DNA of 33,920 nt from Oligoflexia bacterium (GTDB lineage Bacteria > Bdellovibrionota > UBA1018 > CAIMNF01): the NCBI GenBank assembly GCA_903845155.1, contig CAIMWN010000116.1:1-33920 (forward strand), in the 5' to 3' direction. Under the pieces are notes generated by a model, which saw nothing but the letters and a program-made list of their open reading frames with translations, made no database searches and was not told where the DNA came from. How positions within the stretch are numbered: position 1 is the stretch's first letter; each line of letters opens with the position of its first letter. Shown piece by piece: positions 7,676 to 28,118 of the stretch. Made by a program: the position numbers and the translations under genes.

Positions 7676-8296
7676 TCAAAGCTCCATGGGAATACTGATT
7701 TTTAAGAAAAATGCTGAAAACGATTTGCCATTCGAGCTAAAACTACCCGCACGAAGCTGAGTTGCAATCCAATGACTGAAAACTGGAAAACCATAGGTAA
7801 GTTGTGCTGTGATTCCGGAAGCTGGATAGATCTGAGAATTGCCCGTTAGTAATAATTCCTCAGCCCCAACGCCAATAGAGAGCGTTTTCTCCCGGGCTTG
7901 TGACTCACTTTGAATCACTCCTTCAGGGTTCCGTAGCTCATGGGTTTCATAGATAAAGGAACCTAAAATTGCGTAATGGGCAGCGAGCACGAATCCGGTG
8001 TATAAACTTCCAAAATTTGTATTAAACATTTGTGCGAGCGATCCTTGAAACCCCCACGACCTGGAAAAACCATATGCATACCCCAAACTCACGCCCATTC
8101 CCGACAGCGGAACCAAAGTGCTGAGATTCGCATATTCCGCTCCAATCGAAAACGCACTCTTCTTCACATCATCTATCACTGAAATATTAAGTTTTTGTGC
8201 GTTACCCGCCAGCTCTGCAAATGCTGATTCATTGAGTGCCCAAAATAAGAAAATAAGTCCCAAAGAGTAGATCAACTTAAGCCGCGCGCTTTTCAT
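7676..8296 (-). CDS. predicted small outer-membrane beta-barrel protein
   Basis: 206 residues with a clear signal peptide, likely cleaved after ESAFA (~residue 27). The mature part is a run of alternating polar and hydrophobic segments (AFSIGAEYANL, GMGVSLGYAYGF, GITAQLTYGF) typical of short antiparallel strands of an outer-membrane barrel of about eight strands. No named family was recognised. It starts at an ATG behind a strong GGAGGAG site and overlaps the end of the FliF/FliG-like gene by 20 nt. Its stop lies just before the giant lipoprotein start, so the three are probably translated from one message. From context it may be the outer-membrane partner or anchor of the stator-linked assembly. 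The barrel call is an inference from composition, and the C-terminus lacks the usual terminal aromatic residue. Confidence 0.65.
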   Translation of the reverse strand: MKSARLKLIYSLGLIFLFWALNESAFAELAGNAQKLNISVIDDVKKSAFSIGAEYANLSTLVPLSGMGVSLGYAYGFSRSWGFQGSLAQMFNTNFGSLYTGFVLAAHYAILGSFIYETHELRNPEGVIQSESQAREKTLSIGVGAEELLLTGNSQIYPASGITAQLTYGFPVFSHWIATQLRAGSFSSNGKSFSAFFLKISIPMEL

Positions 8297-9779
8297 CGCT
8301 CTCCTCCATTTTCTCTTCGTATTGATGCAGCGATTCTTTCACCAAGAAACGAAAAGCAGATGAATCACGGTTCGGCCTGACTTTTTGAGAATACTCCCTC
8401 ACTAAGTTTCGCTTCTTCTCAGGCAAGGACTCAAGCAAACTTTCTAAAATAACAGTTGGTCCCACCATCGCTTGAGCCAAATCCTGAGCATTCAATTTAT
8501 CCGTGAAACCTTGCCTTACCTCTAACGGCAGGAGCGCAAACCAAACCAAACTTTGAACTTGCCTGCGAAACGACGAAGGAATAGAGGATGGATCATTGAA
8601 GATGGAAAGCTCATCCTCAGAAGACAGAGTACCCAACTCAAATCCACTTTCGAACACACGTTTTTGCGAGTGGACTTCAGGGAATGATATATGAAGTGAC
8701 TTTTCGCGAGAGGACTTGGCCTCACTCATCACATGAATCTTCTCTAGCAAAGAAAGTGGCGAGTCCTTTAACCTCATCGGTGTCAACTTTGAATAATCTC
8801 CGGAATTATTTTTCAATGACTGAAACAAATCCTCTTGTGAAAGGTGCGAAAATGCGGGCGCTTTTAGATATGCAGGATGCTGATGATAAGCCTCGGCCGC
8901 AGGCTCAAGTTTGGAAACATAAGCCGCATATTCCTCGCCGTGTGTGAAGTTCTTTAGTATGGCCTCACACTGTGTTGTTGAAAAGTTCTTCCAAAGCCAG
9001 GCACCATACTGGTCCAATTTGCACCAATAGCAATCAGAGAAAAGCGCAAGCACCGACTGATCAGACAAGGCATGAAGGCGATCTAAACCTGCACCTTGCA
9101 CCGCCCCCTCTGAACTTCTTTGAATGACCGGAGCAGGTATAGAGGCAAACTCTGGTGCACGCTCAACAGAAGAGCCCTGATGACTGGTCACTTGCTGAAT
9201 CAGTTTCTCGTTTCTTTTACCCGCTAAAAGTGAAAACCCCGAAACCAATAAAATGGAAAGCACGCCCAGGGCGAGAAGACCGATTAAAAAAGTCCTCAGA
9301 TCTAAATTCATTCTATCCAAAACATCCGCAACCCCCTGCCCTGATTGCTGCTTTAAGCGCGATAAAATCAGGTTTGACGTTACTTCGTCCATCTTCTTAT
9401 ACTCAAAATGTTTTTTTGAAATTGGGAAATCAAGCGCACTCTCTAAATTTGACTTTAACTCTTTCGACAACTCGGCTTCCCTGCTTACAATCGTAACATA
9501 AACTGAATCCACATCTTCAAAATCAAGTGCGTCTTGTTTTGATGAAGAGAGCACATTGACCACTTCCGTATCAACACCCGGCAATTCGGTTTTAATAGTC
9601 TTTAACTTTGCATTCACAATGATCTGAGCCGCGGGATCAACTGGAGCAATAATAGAATGTAATTTATCCTGAATGCGGGCCTCAAGATCCATCTTTAGCG
9701 TCACATTTCCAAACGCGCTTGGTTGCAAACTAAGAACCAGGCCGAAAATACCGATAAAGGTTCTAAATAGTTTACTCAT
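8277..9779 (-). CDS. FliF/FliG-like membrane protein (rotor-like component)
   Basis: 500 residues. It has a signal peptide (to about SAFG, residue 24), a periplasmic part (~25-155), one membrane helix (~161-186) and a ~310-residue cytoplasmic part. The periplasmic segment DLEARIQDKLHSIIAPVDPA, followed by a strand rich in V/I/A, resembles the second ring domain of the flagellar M-ring protein FliF. The segment with TIVSREAELSKELKSNLESA continues that likeness up to the membrane helix. After a linker, LDRLHALSDQSVLALFSDC and later GPTVILESLLESLPEKKRNL resemble the helical armadillo-like repeats of the switch protein FliG. The neighbours are a MotA/MotB pair, so a rotor-like partner of the stator is a reasonable inference. 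There are no other flagellar genes in the window. The similarity is by eye and distant. Overlaps of 8 nt and 20 nt with its neighbours indicate coupling. Confidence 0.6.
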   Translation of the reverse strand: MSKLFRTFIGIFGLVLSLQPSAFGNVTLKMDLEARIQDKLHSIIAPVDPAAQIIVNAKLKTIKTELPGVDTEVVNVLSSSKQDALDFEDVDSVYVTIVSREAELSKELKSNLESALDFPISKKHFEYKKMDEVTSNLILSRLKQQSGQGVADVLDRMNLDLRTFLIGLLALGVLSILLVSGFSLLAGKRNEKLIQQVTSHQGSSVERAPEFASIPAPVIQRSSEGAVQGAGLDRLHALSDQSVLALFSDCYWCKLDQYGAWLWKNFSTTQCEAILKNFTHGEEYAAYVSKLEPAAEAYHQHPAYLKAPAFSHLSQEDLFQSLKNNSGDYSKLTPMRLKDSPLSLLEKIHVMSEAKSSREKSLHISFPEVHSQKRVFESGFELGTLSSEDELSIFNDPSSIPSSFRRQVQSLVWFALLPLEVRQGFTDKLNAQDLAQAMVGPTVILESLLESLPEKKRNLVREYSQKVRPNRDSSAFRFLVKESLHQYEEKMEESDEKRAA

Positions 9780-10464
9780 GAGGTTTCCCCCATGGTCGAA
9801 TCACGAGTGAAAGCGTGCGTGATTGTCTCACATTACCCGCTGAACCTTGAGCCGTAAGATGCTCAGGCATAAAGCCAGAATGTACGGCGTACTGAAGTAC
9901 CCGTGTTGCGCGCAGTGAACTTAAATCGAAATTGTCATTCAAATATTGTCCATGACTTTTTGAAACCGGAGTAAGATCGGTATGGCCTACAAAAGTGATT
10001 TCAATACTTCCTTGATAGGGCTTGAGCTTGGTTAAGGTTTCATTGAGAACTTTTAGATCAGACTGATGGGTGGGAAATACTTCTCCCTTTTCATACATGT
10101 TTTCACCCAAAAGAAGTGTGAGTGTTTCACCGTTAGCTGAAAGCACCACGGGAAGGTCCGCCAAGGCAGATTTAACAGCATTTTGAACTGATGTTGCGGA
10201 CTGGGGCGCTGCCGAACCAGCTTTTGCAAGTGTTCCTGTTTGAGTTTCCCCCGCACCGAGAACCTGCGTGATTTGGCCAATACGCTTTAGTACGGAATCA
10301 CGCTTTCCTTCATCAGTAGAAAAGAACAAAATAAAGAAGCACATGAGTACCATCAAAAAGTCGGCATAGGACACTGCCCACAGGTGAGCACCCTCATCTT
10401 GGATTTCGACCGAGCGAGTGACCGGCAATCTTACATGTCTGATTTTTTTAGTTTCAGGCTGCAC
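9772..10464 (-). CDS. MotB-like stator protein with OmpA-type peptidoglycan-binding domain
   Basis: 230 residues, GTG start. A short basic cytoplasmic tail leads into one membrane helix, HLWAVSYADFLMVLMCFFIL. Asp35 in SYADF matches the conserved ion-binding Asp of MotB/PomB (Asp32 in E. coli MotB). A linker follows, including a predicted plug-like stretch, then an OmpA-like domain (~110-225) with FVGHTD, DLSSLRATRVLQY and LTAQGSAG, the motifs that bind peptidoglycan. MotB anchors the stator to the cell wall and provides the ion path together with MotA. The gene overlaps motA-like by 11 nt and the FliF/FliG-like gene by 8 nt. It could drive flagella in trans, but its place next to surface lipoproteins suggests a dedicated machine. 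Confidence 0.9.
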   Translation of the reverse strand: MQPETKKIRHVRLPVTRSVEIQDEGAHLWAVSYADFLMVLMCFFILFFSTDEGKRDSVLKRIGQITQVLGAGETQTGTLAKAGSAAPQSATSVQNAVKSALADLPVVLSANGETLTLLLGENMYEKGEVFPTHQSDLKVLNETLTKLKPYQGSIEITFVGHTDLTPVSKSHGQYLNDNFDLSSLRATRVLQYAVHSGFMPEHLTAQGSAGNVRQSRTLSLVIRPWGKPHE

Positions 10465-11158
10465 GGTGATTCATCTCCTCTCGAATAAGAGACATCGGTT
10501 CGTCGCGATTAATTAAAAGTAAAATTTCATAAATATTTTCAAGATAGCGCTGCTCCTGTAAATGATGCACGTGCAATCGATCCGCCAGCGGAGAAATAAT
10601 TCCGTTGGTGAGAATCAAACCTAAAAATGTGGCCGTCATTGCCATGGAAAGGCTAGTACCCAGATGATCTTTGTTCTGATCTAATTTTGCAAAAAGTGAA
10701 ATCATTCCAATAACGGTACCTAACATACCGAGCGCTGGCGGGTACTTGGCTAGATTCTTCAAAGCCTGAACTGCATCTAGAGTTTTTGACTCAAGCTCTC
10801 TTTTCTTTTGTGAAACGAGCACAATAAATAAATCAGGATCAACCCCCTGCTCCCAAAGGTCCACGCCGTAGAGAATGAGCGGGTCATCACAGGGTGAACT
10901 GAGTTTACGACTCTTCATTAGCTCCATTAAGGACACTTTGTTTTCATTGAAATCACGTTCCCGCTGACTGAGTATTTTTAAGGAGCGCAAAATAGATTTC
11001 AATACCCCGATCGGATTCGCAACCACCATAATGGCAATTGATCCACCGAGCACAATAATCAGGGAGTGAGCCTGCAAATATCCCTGTAAGTTGCCCTTTT
11101 CAAGAGCACCTAACATCACCAGAGACATCAAGATAAAGCCAAGAAGTAAACCCTTCAT
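10454..11158 (-). CDS. MotA-like stator protein
   Basis: 234 residues, slightly short for MotA/PomA (~250-295). Four membrane helices fit: ~1-20, ~31-50, then after a ~90-residue cytoplasmic loop ~142-162 and ~175-195. Typical family strings are present: SLIIVLGGSIAIMVVANP (helix 2), YPPALGMLGTVIGMISLF (helix 3, with the conserved proline) and TATFLGLILTNGIISPLADR (helix 4), followed by NRDEPMSLIREEM at the C-terminus. In the family, MotA surrounds the MotB helix and its cytoplasmic loop pushes on FliG. The ATG overlaps the upstream stop as ATGA, with GGAGG just ahead. The next gene is MotB-like. The FliG-like domain two genes on would be the natural target of the loop. Confidence 0.9.
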   Translation of the reverse strand: MKGLLLGFILMSLVMLGALEKGNLQGYLQAHSLIIVLGGSIAIMVVANPIGVLKSILRSLKILSQRERDFNENKVSLMELMKSRKLSSPCDDPLILYGVDLWEQGVDPDLFIVLVSQKKRELESKTLDAVQALKNLAKYPPALGMLGTVIGMISLFAKLDQNKDHLGTSLSMAMTATFLGLILTNGIISPLADRLHVHHLQEQRYLENIYEILLLINRDEPMSLIREEMNHRAA

Positions 11159-19836: not shown

Positions 19837-21384
19837 CTATAAATACATCGTATCCTCAAAAGCCGCCAGCGCAACCTTTGCACCCTCACCCATCGCAATA
19901 ATAATTTGTTTATAAGGAATGGTGGTCACGTCACCCGCAGCATAAATACCAGCCACATTCGTTCTCCCTTTTTGATCCACCACAATCTCGCCAGTTTTGG
20001 TGAGGTCCACTGTGTCTTTCAAAAATTGACTGTTGGGAACTAGACCAATTTGAACAAAGATCCCATCTAAATCAATTGAAACATCAAGGCCGGTTTTTCG
20101 ATCTTCATAAATAATCTTGTTTACGGCTTTCCCGTCACCGACGACCTCTTTCGTACGAGCAGAAGTAACCACTGAGGCATTCGGTAAGGACTTTAACTTA
20201 TTAATCAACACCTGATCAGCTTTCAGTTGATCGTTAAACTCAAACAGAATTACTTCTTTGACCATTCCCGCTAGATCAATCGCTGCCTCCACCCCGGAAT
20301 TCCCTCCGCCGACGACTGCCACTTTTTTTCCTTTATAGAAGGGGCCATCACAGTGCGGACAAAACGCAACCCCCCTCCCGAGGTATTCCTTTTCGCCGGG
20401 GATTCCTAGCTCTCTCCACTTCGCACCACTCGCTACAATGATTGATTTAGTGGTGAGAAACTCACCACTCTCTAGCTCAATCCGATGCAAATCACCTTTC
20501 ACGATGGATTTCACACGACGGTGCTCAAGAATGCTCACTGGATAGCTTAAAACATGTTGCCTTAGCTGAGCTGCAAGTGTCGGCCCTTCGGTATATAAAA
20601 CAGAAATCAGATTCTCGATTCCTTTGGTTTCTTGAACTTGACCGCCTACTTTTTCAGCAATCAGTATAGTTTTGATTCCTTTTCTAGCGCTATAAATTGC
20701 GGCCGATGCCCCGGCAGGACCGCCTCCAATGACGGCCATTTCAAACTGACCCAAATCAAGCGACTCTTGAGCTATTTTTTTTACGCCAAAGGTCGTTTCC
20801 AATTTTAACAATAAATCCGCAACCGAGATTTTCCCCGAATGAATGAGCTTACCATTCGCAACCACGCTCGGAACGCCTTGGATGCCCAGATTTTCGATTT
20901 CGTCTGGTACATAGGCACCGTCAATCATGGTGTGCTTAAACTGCCCATGCGCCAAAGCCATTTGATTTAAAGCTTGAACGACGTCAGGACAATTTTCGCA
21001 AGTAAGTGAGACGTAGGTTTTAAGCTCGATCGGTGCATTTAAATTCTTTATTCGCGACACCAAGCCTTGGTCAAAGCGCTTTCCTTTTTCGTCTGCATGT
21101 AAAATAGCGAGCACCAGGGAACTAAACTCATGCCCGTTCGGAATACCCTTAAATTCTATTCCGGTATGCAACCCGCCCTTTAGAATTTTAAATTCAGGAA
21201 AGGGCGCTGACCTAAGTAAGTCTTCATGAACTGAAAGCTTGCTAGAGACTGAACTCACTTCGGTCAGCATCTCCACCAATTGCCCTTGATCGGGGTGATC
21301 GCTTTTTGCAAAGGAGAACTCAATCGTGCTTTCTAATGAAATAAACAGATCCTGTAATTGCTGCTTTAAATTTTGATCTAACAT
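19837..21384 (-). CDS. ahpF: alkyl hydroperoxide reductase subunit F (NADH-peroxiredoxin reductase)
   Basis: 515 residues from ATG 21384, 18 codons inside the tracked ORF. This start has AAAGGAG ahead and gives MLDQNLKQQL, matching the known AhpF N-terminus (E. coli 521 residues). The N-terminal double thioredoxin-fold domain carries CENC (Cys129/Cys132). The flavoprotein part has the FAD motif GGGPAGASAAIYSARKG, the redox pair CPHCDGPF and the NAD(P)H motif VVGGGNSGVEAAIDLAG, ending with GIYAAGDVTT. It moves electrons from NADH through FAD and both disulfides to AhpC, in the cytoplasm. It lies 31 nt downstream of ahpC in one operon. Confidence 0.96.
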   Translation of the reverse strand: MLDQNLKQQLQDLFISLESTIEFSFAKSDHPDQGQLVEMLTEVSSVSSKLSVHEDLLRSAPFPEFKILKGGLHTGIEFKGIPNGHEFSSLVLAILHADEKGKRFDQGLVSRIKNLNAPIELKTYVSLTCENCPDVVQALNQMALAHGQFKHTMIDGAYVPDEIENLGIQGVPSVVANGKLIHSGKISVADLLLKLETTFGVKKIAQESLDLGQFEMAVIGGGPAGASAAIYSARKGIKTILIAEKVGGQVQETKGIENLISVLYTEGPTLAAQLRQHVLSYPVSILEHRRVKSIVKGDLHRIELESGEFLTTKSIIVASGAKWRELGIPGEKEYLGRGVAFCPHCDGPFYKGKKVAVVGGGNSGVEAAIDLAGMVKEVILFEFNDQLKADQVLINKLKSLPNASVVTSARTKEVVGDGKAVNKIIYEDRKTGLDVSIDLDGIFVQIGLVPNSQFLKDTVDLTKTGEIVVDQKGRTNVAGIYAAGDVTTIPYKQIIIAMGEGAKVALAAFEDTMYL

Positions 21385-21415
21385 GACGAAGTTCTCCTTT
21401 GCTAAAAAGTTTAAA

Positions 21416-21982
21416 TTAAATTTTTCCGACGAGATCAAGCCCAGGCTTTAGAGTTTGCGCACCTGGCTTCCACTTTGCGGGACACACCTCACCCGGATGG
21501 CTCGCGACAAATTGCGCAGCTTGAACTTTGCGCAAAAGCTCATTTGCATTACGACCAATGCCATTGTCATGAATCTCGGCAATTTTAATTTTTCCCTCAG
21601 GGTCAACCAAAAAAGTCCCACGGTATGCAAGGCCTTCCTCCTCAATATGAACACCAAATGCACGCGTGAGCATTCCGGTAGGGTCTGCTAACATCGGGTA
21701 TTTAATTTTCTTGATCGTTTCTGAGGCGTCGTGCCAGGCTTTATGAACAAAATGGGTGTCAGTACTGATGGAGTATACTTCCACCCCCATTTTTTTAAAT
21801 TCCGCATATTGATCCGCCATGTCCCCTAATTCAGTAGGGCAGACAAAGGTGAAATCGGCTGGATAGAAGAAAAAAATGGACCACGCACCATGGAGGTCAT
21901 TCCTTGAAATCGTTTTAAACGCGCCCTCATGATAGGCCTGCACCTTAAAATCCTGTAACTTGCTGTTAATAATAGTGTTCAC
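21416..21982 (-). CDS. ahpC: alkyl hydroperoxide reductase subunit C (2-Cys peroxiredoxin)
   Basis: 188 residues, full length for AhpC, with a GTG start behind AAAGGAG. The peroxidatic cysteine is Cys48 in FVCPTE and the resolving one is Cys167 in EVCPAKW. ADFTFVCPTELGD, STDTHFVHKAWHD and RGTFLVDPEGKI are typical of the family. It reduces H2O2 and organic peroxides and is recycled by AhpF, the next gene. The operon is divergent from oxyR, with an OxyR-like operator ~80 bp upstream, so peroxide induction is likely. Confidence 0.97.
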   Translation of the reverse strand: MNTIINSKLQDFKVQAYHEGAFKTISRNDLHGAWSIFFFYPADFTFVCPTELGDMADQYAEFKKMGVEVYSISTDTHFVHKAWHDASETIKKIKYPMLADPTGMLTRAFGVHIEEEGLAYRGTFLVDPEGKIKIAEIHDNGIGRNANELLRKVQAAQFVASHPGEVCPAKWKPGAQTLKPGLDLVGKI

Positions 21983-22061
21983 TCTGGTCTCCTTTCCGCT
22001 GCGTGCTCCAGGGCACCTTGCGGTCTACACACAGAATCGCCTATTTTTAATGATTCATAAA

Positions 22062-22097
22062 TTCGATTAAATCTATTATACTATAGATAATAACTAT
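22062..22097. promoter_or_regulatory. OxyR-type operator between ahpC and oxyR
   Basis: The right half (22083-22097) is ATAG-N7-CTAT and matches ATAGnTnnnAnCTAT exactly. The left half (22062-22076) matches the same 10 defined positions at 8. The halves are 6 bp apart, one less than the usual 7. The site ends 1 nt before the GGAGG ribosome site of oxyR, so binding could repress oxyR while activating ahpCF. Confidence 0.75.
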
Positions 22098-22109
22098 CGG
22101 AGGTTTGCC

Positions 22110-23063
22110 ATGACTAGCTTGACCCAATTGGAATACGTAATCGCCGTGGATCAGCACCGGCACTTTGGAAAGGCCGCAAAAGCAGTACACATTTCACAGC
22201 CCACTTTAAGTCAGCAAATTCAAAAACTCGAGGATGAGCTCGGGCTGATTATTTTTGATCGACTACAAAAACCGATTATTCCAACCGAAGAGGGGCAACG
22301 GTTTATTACTCAAGCACGTAACGTCATCAAGGAACACCAAAAGCTACTTCACATCGCTGCAAAAAAACCAACAGGGGTAAGCGGTAAATTTCGACTCGGC
22401 ATCATTCCCACAGTGGCAAGTCACCTCTTACCACTTTTTATTGGAAATTTCTCAAAGAAGTACCCCAATGTCGATCTCTATATTGAGGAGATGAAAACTG
22501 ATACGATCATTCAAGATCTAAAAAACGATCGTATTGATGGAGCAATCCTTGCCACTCCTTTGGAAGAGCCAAGCTTGAAAGAGCACCCACTTTACTATGA
22601 ACCATTTTATTTATACCTTTCTGAAAACCACCCACTCCTTTCCAAACCAACACTTACTTCACAGGATCTAGATGAAAATGAAATGTGGCTCCTCCAAGAT
22701 GGACATTGCTTCAAATCACAAATGGCGCATTTTTGCTCACTCAACGTCGAGCACGACACTGTTTTCAAAAACATTCATTTTCAAAGTGGAAGTTTGGACG
22801 CACTTCGCGCGTTGGTTAAAAACAATCGCGGGTATACGATGATTCCAGAGCTCATGGTCGAATCGCTCTCTGACGCCGAAATTAGAAAACAAGTGCGGGC
22901 CTTCAAGTCGCCGATTCCTACTCGCGAAATCAGCTTCGTTTATCGACGCGACCATTGGAAACTCGACATCATCCGTGCGCTCGAGGATTGCGTGAGCGAA
23001 TCTCTTCCTGAAGCCATCAGTAGAAAAAGGGAGAAGTCTGGACGTGTTCTAGCCCCAGAGTAA
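22110..23063 (+). CDS. oxyR: hydrogen-peroxide-sensing regulator OxyR
   Basis: 317 residues. LysR-type HTH near the N-terminus (RHFGKAAKAVHISQPTLSQQ). The effector domain contains LLQDGHCFKSQMAHFC, in which Cys200 and Cys209 have the same 9-residue spacing as the redox pair Cys199/Cys208 of E. coli OxyR. Oxidation of these forms the disulfide that activates transcription of peroxide defence genes. Good GGAGG site, 6 nt from the ATG. Divergent from ahpCF over a 127-bp gap that contains the operator. Ends with a short charged tail. Confidence 0.95.
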   Translation: MTSLTQLEYVIAVDQHRHFGKAAKAVHISQPTLSQQIQKLEDELGLIIFDRLQKPIIPTEEGQRFITQARNVIKEHQKLLHIAAKKPTGVSGKFRLGIIPTVASHLLPLFIGNFSKKYPNVDLYIEEMKTDTIIQDLKNDRIDGAILATPLEEPSLKEHPLYYEPFYLYLSENHPLLSKPTLTSQDLDENEMWLLQDGHCFKSQMAHFCSLNVEHDTVFKNIHFQSGSLDALRALVKNNRGYTMIPELMVESLSDAEIRKQVRAFKSPIPTREISFVYRRDHWKLDIIRALEDCVSESLPEAISRKREKSGRVLAPE

Positions 23064-25553: not shown

Positions 25554-25964
25554 ATGATACCGAATACCTTGTTGAATCAATTAGAGTGGCACGAAGAATA
25601 CTCCGTGAAAGATCAGGCGATTGATCTCAACCATCAACATCTGCTTATTAAGATGAAAACATTAATGGTGAGTGCCTACGCAACACCTAATAACAGCAAT
25701 CTATCTGTTGCGCTTTCTGAAATGATTGGCGCCCTCAAGATTCACTTCGAAACGGAAGATCATCTCGTCAATCAACTCAACGTTTCAAAAGAAGCGTCGG
25801 CTGAACACACCAAGCATCATCAAGAATTTTTAGAGATAGTGGGAAACTACAAAAAAGATCTTGTCGCAAATGCAGCGGTGAGCTCCAAAACCATCTTGAA
25901 TATGATAGCGCGTGATTTGATCGAACATATCAAAATCGAGGCTGCGATCTTAAAACAACCTTAA
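25554..25964 (+). CDS. bacteriohemerythrin-like protein with altered iron ligand
   Basis: 136 residues, a single hemerythrin four-helix bundle. It starts with LEWHEEYSVKDQAIDLNHQH, the family's W...Y.V....ID..H pattern. Ligand candidates are His29, His64 and Glu68 (HFETED), His85/His89 (HTKHH) and His125 (EHIKIEAAIL). The usual final carboxylate (HIxxxD) would fall at residue 130, which is Ala here; Glu129 is next to it. It may bind iron differently or use Glu129. Hemerythrins carry or sense O2, or deliver it. The 3' end overlaps the convergent gene 25961 by 4 nt. Confidence 0.88.
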   Translation: MIPNTLLNQLEWHEEYSVKDQAIDLNHQHLLIKMKTLMVSAYATPNNSNLSVALSEMIGALKIHFETEDHLVNQLNVSKEASAEHTKHHQEFLEIVGNYKKDLVANAAVSSKTILNMIARDLIEHIKIEAAILKQP

Positions 25965-26608
25965 AATTCAGCCTGAGTAATAGAAGGCAGATCCTGCATC
26001 TTGAGAGCCTTCACTAATTTACCCGCCTTGGATAGATTCATTTTGGTCACCGCACCCATAGCGTTGATTTGAATTTCTATCCCATCAATTTCAAATTGAT
26101 CAAGATAAAACACCTTCCACTTCACGTCACCATTTACGTGCGTCGCCGTAATAAATGTTTTCTTAAAAATATGCTGCAAAAATGAAGCTCTAAATTTAAA
26201 ATCCACTGGGTAAACATCTCGCAGATGAGCAACGTCGAAAACGGGCGGATAGAATTTAGCTTTTAAGAGATCGGTGTCGAGAATGCCATTGAGATTCTCT
26301 TTGGGGATGAATACGGCCTGGCCATTTGCGGGATTAAAATGGTCTTTTTCAGTTCCATTTTCAGCGTATATAAAATTAAGAATGACTTCGTAAACCTCAG
26401 TGGAACTGGGCACTCTTGCGGCATTTTCAGCGTGCTCCAGCAGAATTTCTCCCTTGATGCTTTTTCCGAAAACCGGAGGCAAGGTCACCGTGAGATCGAG
26501 AATTTTCTCTTTCATACTGAAATCACTTTGTTCCAAGGCTGCTGAACAATTCTCTGCGCTTGAAATCATTGCCAACCCAAAAACCACAAACATCAATATT
26601 TTTAACAT
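25961..26608 (-). CDS. exported protein of unknown function
   Basis: 215 residues with a signal peptide (MLKILMFVVFGLAMISS, cleavage near CSA, ~24). The mature part is mixed alpha/beta with no motif I recognise; FYPPVFDVAHLRDVYPVDFK and KWKVFYLDQFEIDGIEIQIN suggest beta strands. Probably periplasmic or secreted. It is convergent with the hemerythrin gene and divergent from the cytochrome lipoprotein over 87 bp. No strong ribosome site precedes the ATG. Confidence 0.75.
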   Translation of the reverse strand: MLKILMFVVFGLAMISSAENCSAALEQSDFSMKEKILDLTVTLPPVFGKSIKGEILLEHAENAARVPSSTEVYEVILNFIYAENGTEKDHFNPANGQAVFIPKENLNGILDTDLLKAKFYPPVFDVAHLRDVYPVDFKFRASFLQHIFKKTFITATHVNGDVKWKVFYLDQFEIDGIEIQINAMGAVTKMNLSKAGKLVKALKMQDLPSITQAEF

Positions 26609-26695: not shown

Positions 26696-27031
26696 ATGAA
26701 AACACTAAAAATACGGTTAACCGGGCTTCCAGTGAGCTTTTTTGTTCTTTTTGTTTTAACGTCATGCGGCAGTCGTGAACTAAAAATTCCTATTCATCCC
26801 ACCTACCAGTCTATTCAAGCGATTACGATCAGCCAGAAATGCCTAATGTGCCATGAATCTATTTCAAGCTATGAAGGGTTATTACAAACCGTCCAGCCAG
26901 GTAACCCGGCGGGAAGCGATCTCTACAAACAAATCACCAATGGCAGTATGCCGCAGTGGTCTCCTAAACTTTCGGATGCCGAAATTCAAGCGATTTACAC
27001 CTGGATTTTGAACGGAGCACAAAATGACTAA
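26696..27031 (+). CDS. monoheme c-type cytochrome lipoprotein
   Basis: 111 residues from ATG 26696 (27th codon of the tracked ORF), the only start that gives a signal peptide: MKTLKIRLTGLPVSFFVLFV with lipobox LTSC (Cys24). A heme c site CLMCH lies at 49-53, and Met85 in NGSMPQWSP is the likely sixth ligand. LSDAEIQAIYTWILNGA is the usual C-terminal helix of small class-I-like cytochromes. The ribosome site is weak. It overlaps the next gene by 8 nt, so the two are coupled. Role inferred: electron carrier for the cytochrome-porin fusion downstream. Confidence 0.85.
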   Translation: MKTLKIRLTGLPVSFFVLFVLTSCGSRELKIPIHPTYQSIQAITISQKCLMCHESISSYEGLLQTVQPGNPAGSDLYKQITNGSMPQWSPKLSDAEIQAIYTWILNGAQND

Positions 27032-28118
27032 GCTACTGGTGATTCTTTCTATTTTAGCTTCCTCAACTTCTTTTGCATTTCCGGGAATGATTCGGCATGG
27101 ATATGTAAACTGCACCACTTGCCACGTTTCTCCCTCCGGCGGCGGCATTCTCACTGAATATGGCCATGAACTTTCGGCAGAAGTACTGAGCACCTGGTCT
27201 AAAGATGGTGAAGAAAAATTTCTTTACGGTTCGGTAGCCAAACACCTCTCGAAGGATCTTTTGCTAGGAGGAGACACTCGAGTCATCCAGACCTACCAAG
27301 ACAATCCAATGTTCACTGAAAAACGTTTTTTTCTAATGCAGGCTGATTTGGAAGGAGCTTATAAAATGGGTAAGCTCACCATTGACCTCGAAGCGGGCTA
27401 CCTTGACTCCGACACTTTTCAGTCCCTTCGACATTTCTTCTTATATCAATTCAATGATGTCGATGCGCTTCGCTTGGGTAAATTTAAGAACAATTACGGC
27501 ATCAATACCGACGAACACATGCTCTCCATTAAAAGTAATTTAGGATGGAATGATGAAACGGAAACTTATAATTTGGAGTATTCCCGCTTGACCGGGAAAT
27601 ACAGCATTTTTGCCACGGCCATTTTTGGTGCTCCTGAAAGCATTAGTCAAAAACGCAATCTGACCGTCGGTGAGATTGGTGTAGTTGATCACGGTGGGTC
27701 GCTTCGCGCGTCGTTTTCGGTGGCGGAGAAATATGAATTCGGAGTGAGCTACTTCTACGGTAAGAAAGCATTTGAGGATTGGCGATCGGTTGCAGGCCCC
27801 TTCGTCATTTTGGGATTCACGCCCAACTTCTTTTACATGGGGGAACTTGATTTCCAAGCTCAAAATGGAACCGGGGTTTATGATTACCAAAGACTCACTT
27901 ATGAACCCATACAAGGTCTACAATGTTATGTGACCCAGGAAATAGCTCATCCAAATAATGGTGACACTGCCATGCAACTCTCGCGTTATGGTTTGGGTGT
28001 GCAATTTTTCCCAAGACCGCATAGTGAAATTCATGCTCAGTGGAAATGGGAAGAAGATGTGTATGATGAATCTCAATACCATCCTGTCGCCTCATTACTC
28101 TGGCACTACTATTTGTAA
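27024..28118 (+). CDS. cytochrome-porin fusion protein (CxxCH plus beta-barrel), Cyc2-like architecture
   Basis: 364 residues. Signal peptide (to about SFA, ~18), then a short heme-binding segment GYVNCTTCHVSPSGGG (Cys30, Cys33, His34) and a stretch LTEYGHELSAEVLSTW. From ~65 to the end the sequence alternates like an outer-membrane barrel (FFLMQADLEGAYKMG, KLTIDLEAGYLD, HAQWKWEEDVYD) and ends in WHYYL with terminal aromatics. A single c heme fused to a porin is the layout of Cyc2, the iron oxidase of neutrophilic and acidophilic iron oxidisers, though the sequence may be only distantly related. It follows the cytochrome lipoprotein with an 8-nt overlap and a GGAG site. Transfer of electrons across the outer membrane is inferred. 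Confidence 0.75.
   Translation: MTKLLVILSILASSTSFAFPGMIRHGYVNCTTCHVSPSGGGILTEYGHELSAEVLSTWSKDGEEKFLYGSVAKHLSKDLLLGGDTRVIQTYQDNPMFTEKRFFLMQADLEGAYKMGKLTIDLEAGYLDSDTFQSLRHFFLYQFNDVDALRLGKFKNNYGINTDEHMLSIKSNLGWNDETETYNLEYSRLTGKYSIFATAIFGAPESISQKRNLTVGEIGVVDHGGSLRASFSVAEKYEFGVSYFYGKKAFEDWRSVAGPFVILGFTPNFFYMGELDFQAQNGTGVYDYQRLTYEPIQGLQCYVTQEIAHPNNGDTAMQLSRYGLGVQFFPRPHSEIHAQWKWEEDVYDESQYHPVASLLWHYYL

Follow-up and report, generated by a model that had tools for sequence, protein, structure and literature searches.

Two overlapping genes in the analysed window (33,920 nucleotides of DNA from an Oligoflexia bacterium) are interpreted here as encoding a two-protein outer-membrane electron conduit, similar to Cyc2 but representing a distinct family, and this interpretation is given a probability slightly above one half. 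It is built on the anatomy of the gene pair, its conservation, the distribution of the family, the linkage of the genes and the relatedness of one heme segment to that of Cyc2-like proteins, all of which were established in this work.

Anatomy of the two-gene unit

The pair comprises the following features, all on the plus strand.

26696-27031: gene of a monoheme c-type cytochrome lipoprotein (ATG at 26696, TAA ending at 27031, 111 aa)
26756-26767: lipobox codons L-T-S-C of the lipoprotein (residues 21-24, LTSC24)
26840-26854: CxxCH heme site of the lipoprotein, CLMCH (residues 49-53)
Residues 85-86 of the lipoprotein: conserved Met-Pro, likely distal ligand
27024-28118: cytochrome-porin fusion gene (ATG at 27024, TAA ending at 28118, 364 aa) with signal peptide, N-terminal heme segment and predicted 16-strand barrel
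27075-27164: heme segment AFPGMIRHGYVNCTTCHVSPSGGGILTEYG (residues 18-47 of the 364-aa protein), aligned in register with the heme motif of Cyc2
27111-27125: CxxCH heme site of the 364-aa protein, CTTCH (residues 30-34)
27258-28112: 16 predicted beta strands (residues 79-363; AlphaFold, equal count in homologue L027)
27336-27338: Met105, unchanged in all 75 homologues; it may ligate the heme or lie on the electron path
27489-27560: long loop with a helix between strands 5 and 6 (residues 156-179; AlphaFold model), at the position of porin loop L3
27516-27518: His165, situated in the strand 5-6 loop and likewise unchanged in all 75 homologues; it may be the distal heme ligand or bind a metal

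The original prediction of a monoheme lipoprotein gene overlapping a gene for a heme-bearing barrel protein was confirmed, both genes being present on the same strand with an overlap of 8 bases. The lipoprotein belongs to the Pfam family PF13442 (Cytochrome_CBB3; 31 bits, cut-off 27, E 3e-7), and its nearest NCBIfam family is LIC11213 of Leptospira (NF047812; 46.1 bits, E 5e-12, below the cut-off of 100). The lipobox Cys24 is invariant among 14 aligned lipoprotein homologues, and a CxxCH followed by Met-Pro was present in all 38 lipoproteins checked. The signal peptide of the 364-aa protein ends in ...SFA. Pfam and NCBIfam scans assigned this protein to no family, with weak Porin_O_P matches in 6 of 22 homologues (best E 0.005), and searches of PDB sequences gave no useful match. 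Since the two genes are the only ones with CxxCH among about 27 genes of the window, and since both sites are kept across homologues, their pairing is not due to chance. The scan for promoters and terminators at the pair showed no excess over shuffled sequences. The genome from which the window comes, a 4.29 Mb draft in 337 contigs, also encodes a cytochrome c assembly protein.

Distribution and conservation of the family

The distribution data cover Bdellovibrionota genomes plus plasmids and viral contigs. Homologues of the 364-aa protein were found in 37 of 58 genomes of relatives and, across the phylum Bdellovibrionota, in 252 of 369 genomes; in one genus, probably Bdellovibrio, a family member was present in 23 of 24 genomes. 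The named homologues come from metagenome-assembled genomes labelled Oligoflexia and Bacteriovoracaceae, and the nearest one (G005) is 64 % identical to the window protein. The plasmid search for the heme segment of the family revealed no convincing relative, and nothing was found by a DNA pattern scan of the viral contigs. Cytochrome-porin genes do occur on IMG/VR contigs: on 3300010403_000013 (L032; 2487-4074 and 6066-7019) YceI and cytochrome-porin genes lie about 2 kb from an ORF that by eye resembles a RecT phage recombinase, and further copies are present on contigs L030, L031, L113 and L119. These copies represent either host contamination or phage-borne genes.

Eleven positions never vary in 75 distinct homologues, namely C30, C33, H34, G39, Y46, G47, M105, G152, G159, H165 and G298. 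R86 is kept in 96 % and R48 in 97 % (73/75) of them; at the latter position, which directly follows Y-G in the heme segment, the window protein has His (27165-27167).

Gene partners of the cytochrome-porin

The neighbourhoods were analysed with profiles made in this work for 47 distinct members with scores of 280 bits or more (closer homologues), YceI genes being counted if they lay within 1.5 kb and on the strand of the cytochrome-porin; the counts are lower bounds, as some flanks are incomplete. A recurrent cassette emerged, consisting of a lipoprotein with one or two hemes, a YceI gene and the cytochrome-porin. A YceI lipocalin gene stands beside the cytochrome-porin in 41 of the 47 members, mostly immediately upstream and often with a 4-base overlap, a cytochrome lipoprotein gene in 37, and at least one of the two adjoins in all 47. 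Adjacency of YceI by chance has a probability well below 1 % because a genome holds only about 3.1 YceI genes (94 in 30 genomes). In one of the 37 members (L024, 2595-3533, minus strand) a single gene directly upstream of the cytochrome-porin encodes the cytochrome lipoprotein fused to a YceI domain. Pfam confirmed YceI in this fusion, in L028 and at the second copy in the window's genome (contig C74). Among the more distant family members belonging to the probable Bdellovibrio genus, a nearby YceI gene is still frequent but lies on the other strand.

The prediction of a two-gene unit thus held for the adjacency of lipoprotein and porin but overlooked YceI, the usual partner. At the window's locus the lipoprotein and porin genes adjoin on the same strand and no YceI gene adjoins the pair, whereas the second copy on contig C74 has one; the nearest homologue G005 and four other members likewise have the lipoprotein and lack an adjacent YceI. 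The minus-strand neighbour at 25961-26608 was considered as a YceI candidate and dropped, having no Pfam match.

YceI proteins bind ubiquinone-8 and related isoprenoids, and in defence against lipid peroxyl radicals the YceI lipocalin BcnA cooperates with LcoA, a cytochrome b561 (PMC9113575). The window itself carries a peroxide-defence locus at 19837-23063, where ahpC and ahpF, on the minus strand, are accompanied by a divergently oriented gene for an OxyR-like regulator of the LysR type. An antioxidant or quinone-linked role is the strongest rival to the conduit, owing to the quinone binding of YceI and the role of BcnA/LcoA, and all the more so to the ahp locus 4-5 kb from the pair. In such an envelope system the YceI of most relatives would carry quinone or scavenge lipid radicals, the cytochromes would trade electrons with YceI and the pore would pass small oxidants or radicals, with no extracellular respiration. 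The frequent YceI linkage and the L024 fusion are in line with this explanation, but neither the window's pair nor G005 has an adjacent YceI, the ahp genes do not run co-linear with the pair, and a heme fused to a barrel is not obviously needed for such systems. It is considered possible but unlikely.

A gene for a hemerythrin-domain protein (25554-25964, plus strand; Pfam E 1.5e-7) lies one gene from the pair. Paraburkholderia OLGA172 (L035) also has a hemerythrin gene close to its Cyc2-like gene.

The predicted barrel

The structure of the window protein was modelled with AlphaFold from only 7 sequences, its own and those of homologues from genome and viral contigs, and that of homologue L027 from only 10. 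Both models show 16 strands and place a helix in the same loop, with a mean pLDDT of 63 and pTM of 0.66 for the window protein, and 69 and 0.72, respectively, for L027. The best Foldseek matches in the PDB were the 16-strand porins Omp38, OmpU, DcaP and VhChiP (best E about 5e-11, TM 0.5-0.6), and a phosphate-selective porin was the best structural match of the barrel model in the viral library. The barrel, a guess in the original prediction, is supported by the two models and the Foldseek matches with moderate confidence. The amphipathic-strand moment did not set the barrel apart from shuffled sequences: the barrel gave 67 windows, and the shuffles averaged 50 and reached 98.

Residues 1-72, which include the heme site, have a pLDDT of about 24-45, and the proposed plugging of the pore by the heme concerns this segment of low model confidence. 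In the OmpU and VhChiP porins the N-terminal segments reside in the pore. In the model of the window protein Met105 belongs to strand 2, and His165 is part of the long loop at the L3 position; in known porins loop L3 folds into the channel and constricts it. One of these two residues may complete the heme site.

Alternatively, the protein could be a porin of specialised type whose heme serves as a sensor or structural plug, the redox or gas state of the heme gating the pore for a nutrient with no net electron transfer. Such gating would suit the fold, shared with general solute porins, and the invariant His165 in a channel-constricting loop, but the cytochrome lipoprotein adjoining in 37 of 47 closer homologues suggests electron exchange over gating alone. 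This is the least probable of the explanations weighed.

Relation to Cyc2

The comparators were six Cyc2-like proteins encoded on plasmids of Caballeronia, Methylocystis, Paraburkholderia, Ideonella, Polymorphobacter and Acidithiobacillus ferrooxidans; they were found with a query derived from the published motif and are distinct from the biochemically tested Cyc2 proteins. In most of these plasmids a c-type cytochrome gene directly follows the Cyc2-like gene, and a cyc2-cyc1 arrangement has been reported in Acidithiobacillus (PMC10654088).

In a profile comparison with Cyc2, as proposed alongside the original prediction, the heme segment alone aligned: hhalign of the family against the six proteins paired AFPGMIRHGYVNCTTCHVSPSGGGILTEYG with AIPAFAAQTGEPCSACHIGFPQLTPYG at 95 % probability and a score of 68.2, while the barrels showed no sequence relation (probability 0.2 %). 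Shuffled sequences with CxxCH fixed reached at most 40.0 (200 global shuffles) and 49.6 (200 local shuffles). With 75 family members instead of 22 the score was 58 at 92 %, and the heme segment scored 30 against the lipoprotein family. The shared register reads A-x-P-x-x-x-R-x5-C-x-x-C-H ... L-T-x-Y/F-G.

The 364-aa protein has the signal peptide and the single N-terminal CxxCH by which Cyc2 is recognised and, in the two AlphaFold models, a C-terminal 16-strand barrel of moderate confidence. As to the Cyc2 motif AxPxFAR[QK][TY], the window's AFPGMIRHGYVNC has A, P and R in register and lacks F, A, Q/K and T/Y. In place of the PxL motif, FPxLTPYG in the comparators, it has GGGILTEYG, in which only L-T-x-Y/F-G is retained, and it is one residue shorter than the minimum length of 365 aa. 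The profile of the six Cyc2-like proteins scored the window protein at 11 bits (E 0.014), and in a ranking of 1871 ORFs by this profile the family members came directly after the Cyc2-like proteins. By the published criteria the 364-aa protein is not Cyc2, and at the sequence level its heme segment is recognisably related to those of Cyc2-like proteins. The predicted Cyc2 architecture therefore stood as regards the N-terminal heme, the 16-strand barrel, the cytochrome partner and the relatedness of the heme segment, but did not extend to the motifs, the length or the barrel sequence.

Contig C80 of the window's own genome (L069) carries on its minus strand two tandem cytochrome-porin genes (8256-9557 and 9707-10900) and a class I cytochrome c gene (7889-8140); one of the two porins is nearer to Cyc2 than the window protein is (Cyc2 profile E 4.5e-9), and the other is an intermediate matching both families. 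In G005 a fragment of a Cyc2-like gene lies about 1.7 kb from a pair of the window type. All these proteins are read as a single superfamily in which a heme segment is joined to a 16-strand barrel; the window's family would be a separate branch of it.

The Cyc2 barrel has been described as 16-stranded (Keffer 2021, PMC8406198), and together with the shared architecture and the related heme segment this would suit a true Cyc2-type Fe(II) oxidase, in which extracellular Fe(II) enters the pore and reduces the heme and the lipoprotein passes the electrons on to respiration. The motifs, the length and the low Cyc2 profile score speak against such an enzyme, as does the closer Cyc2 relative on contig C80. 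YceI as the usual genomic partner also points away from plain Fe(II) oxidation. The host phylum, Bdellovibrionota, is mostly predatory or heterotrophic. A true Fe(II) oxidase is regarded as improbable.

Proposed electron path

In the preferred reading, the outer-membrane electron conduit, the 364-aa protein would form a 16-strand porin in the outer membrane, its N-terminal heme c segment closing the periplasmic mouth of the pore. The lipid-anchored lipoprotein would be a class I (His/Met) monoheme cytochrome swapping electrons with the porin heme on the periplasmic side. A small external redox partner, such as a metal ion, a small organic compound or a quinone, would reach the heme through the pore, so that the path would lead from the external partner via the pore, the fused heme and the lipoprotein heme to the periplasm. 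This mode would be like that of Cyc2 with its adjacent periplasmic cytochrome, in a separate family; the YceI lipocalin of most relatives would add a quinone-carrying step, and the window's version would work without YceI. The position of the heme, the direction of the electrons, the substrate, the physical contact of the two proteins and the role of Met105 or His165 in the heme site are inferred.

The conduit is favoured by the adjoining, overlapping CxxCH genes, the Cytochrome_CBB3 match of the lipoprotein with its conserved lipobox and Met-Pro, the eleven invariant positions of the 364-aa protein, the porin fold of the barrel, the Cyc2-related heme segment, the like gene order in the plasmid comparators and in cyc2-cyc1 of Acidithiobacillus, the lipoprotein linkage (37/47), the Cyc2 relative beside a class I cytochrome c on contig C80 and the cytochrome c assembly protein of the same genome. 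Counting against it are the low pLDDT of the heme segment, the lack of sequence relation between the barrels, a usual YceI partner that would suit an antioxidant system too, and the shortness of a chain of one heme plus one heme for a membrane-wide path; moreover, no terminal oxidase or quinol-cytochrome c reductase was found among the neighbours of the pair in the window.

A broader version, in our judgment unlikely, would be a phylum-wide and so far undescribed redox system at the outer membrane of predatory bacteria and their relatives, made up of heme-plugged porin, lipoprotein cytochrome and YceI quinone carrier, in which electrons carried by quinone pass through the periplasm and exit or enter via the outer membrane, the barrel supplies the distal ligand (Met105 or His165) and the window's pair is a reduced two-gene form.

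Novelty and significance

In the open literature, to which most subscription papers do not belong, no description was found of an operon of YceI, c-type cytochrome and porin or of YceI with a cytochrome in Bdellovibrio, and the accessible parts of the open literature on extracellular electron transfer and cytochromes in Bdellovibrionota do not discuss such a system. The pair is probably a route for electrons across the outer membrane that has no description in that literature.

Cyc2 is the well-studied fused cytochrome-porin and serves as a marker of iron oxidation. A second widespread family, alike in plan but with other partners, would make fused cytochrome-porins a general device beyond iron oxidation, and it would be a family hidden by the usual length and motif filters, the window member missing the length by a single residue. 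Bdellovibrionota, known for predation, would gain a possible route by which electrons are exchanged with prey or the surroundings, and YceI lipocalins would gain a defined redox partner, making their function testable.

Comparison with known systems

The predicted barrel fold resembles that of general 16-strand porins (OmpU, DcaP, VhChiP, OmpF), which contain no heme. The window lipoprotein shares its small size and lipid anchor with the LIC11213 family of Leptospira and matches it at E 5e-12, but its 46 bits are far under the family cut-off of 100. MtrAB, PioAB and MtoAB likewise combine a barrel with a cytochrome to move electrons across the outer membrane, but they use a 26-strand barrel and a separate decaheme cytochrome, unlike the 16 strands and one fused heme found here; a multiheme porin-cytochrome complex of this kind was dropped as an explanation in view of the single CxxCH per gene and the 16 strands. 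As in BcnA/LcoA (PMC9113575), a YceI lipocalin is genetically coupled to an envelope cytochrome in most relatives of the pair, although the cytochrome there is a b561 whereas c-type cytochromes and a heme porin are present here, and the window's pair has no adjacent YceI.

Cyc2 differs in its partner, which here is a lipoprotein cytochrome, frequently joined by YceI in the family, and Met105 and His165 have no obvious counterpart in the six comparators, with which the barrel alignment is unreliable. With Cyc2 of Mariprofundus and Acidithiobacillus the pair nevertheless shares a signal peptide, one N-terminal CxxCH, a fused 16-strand barrel (predicted in the window protein) and an adjacent c-type cytochrome gene.
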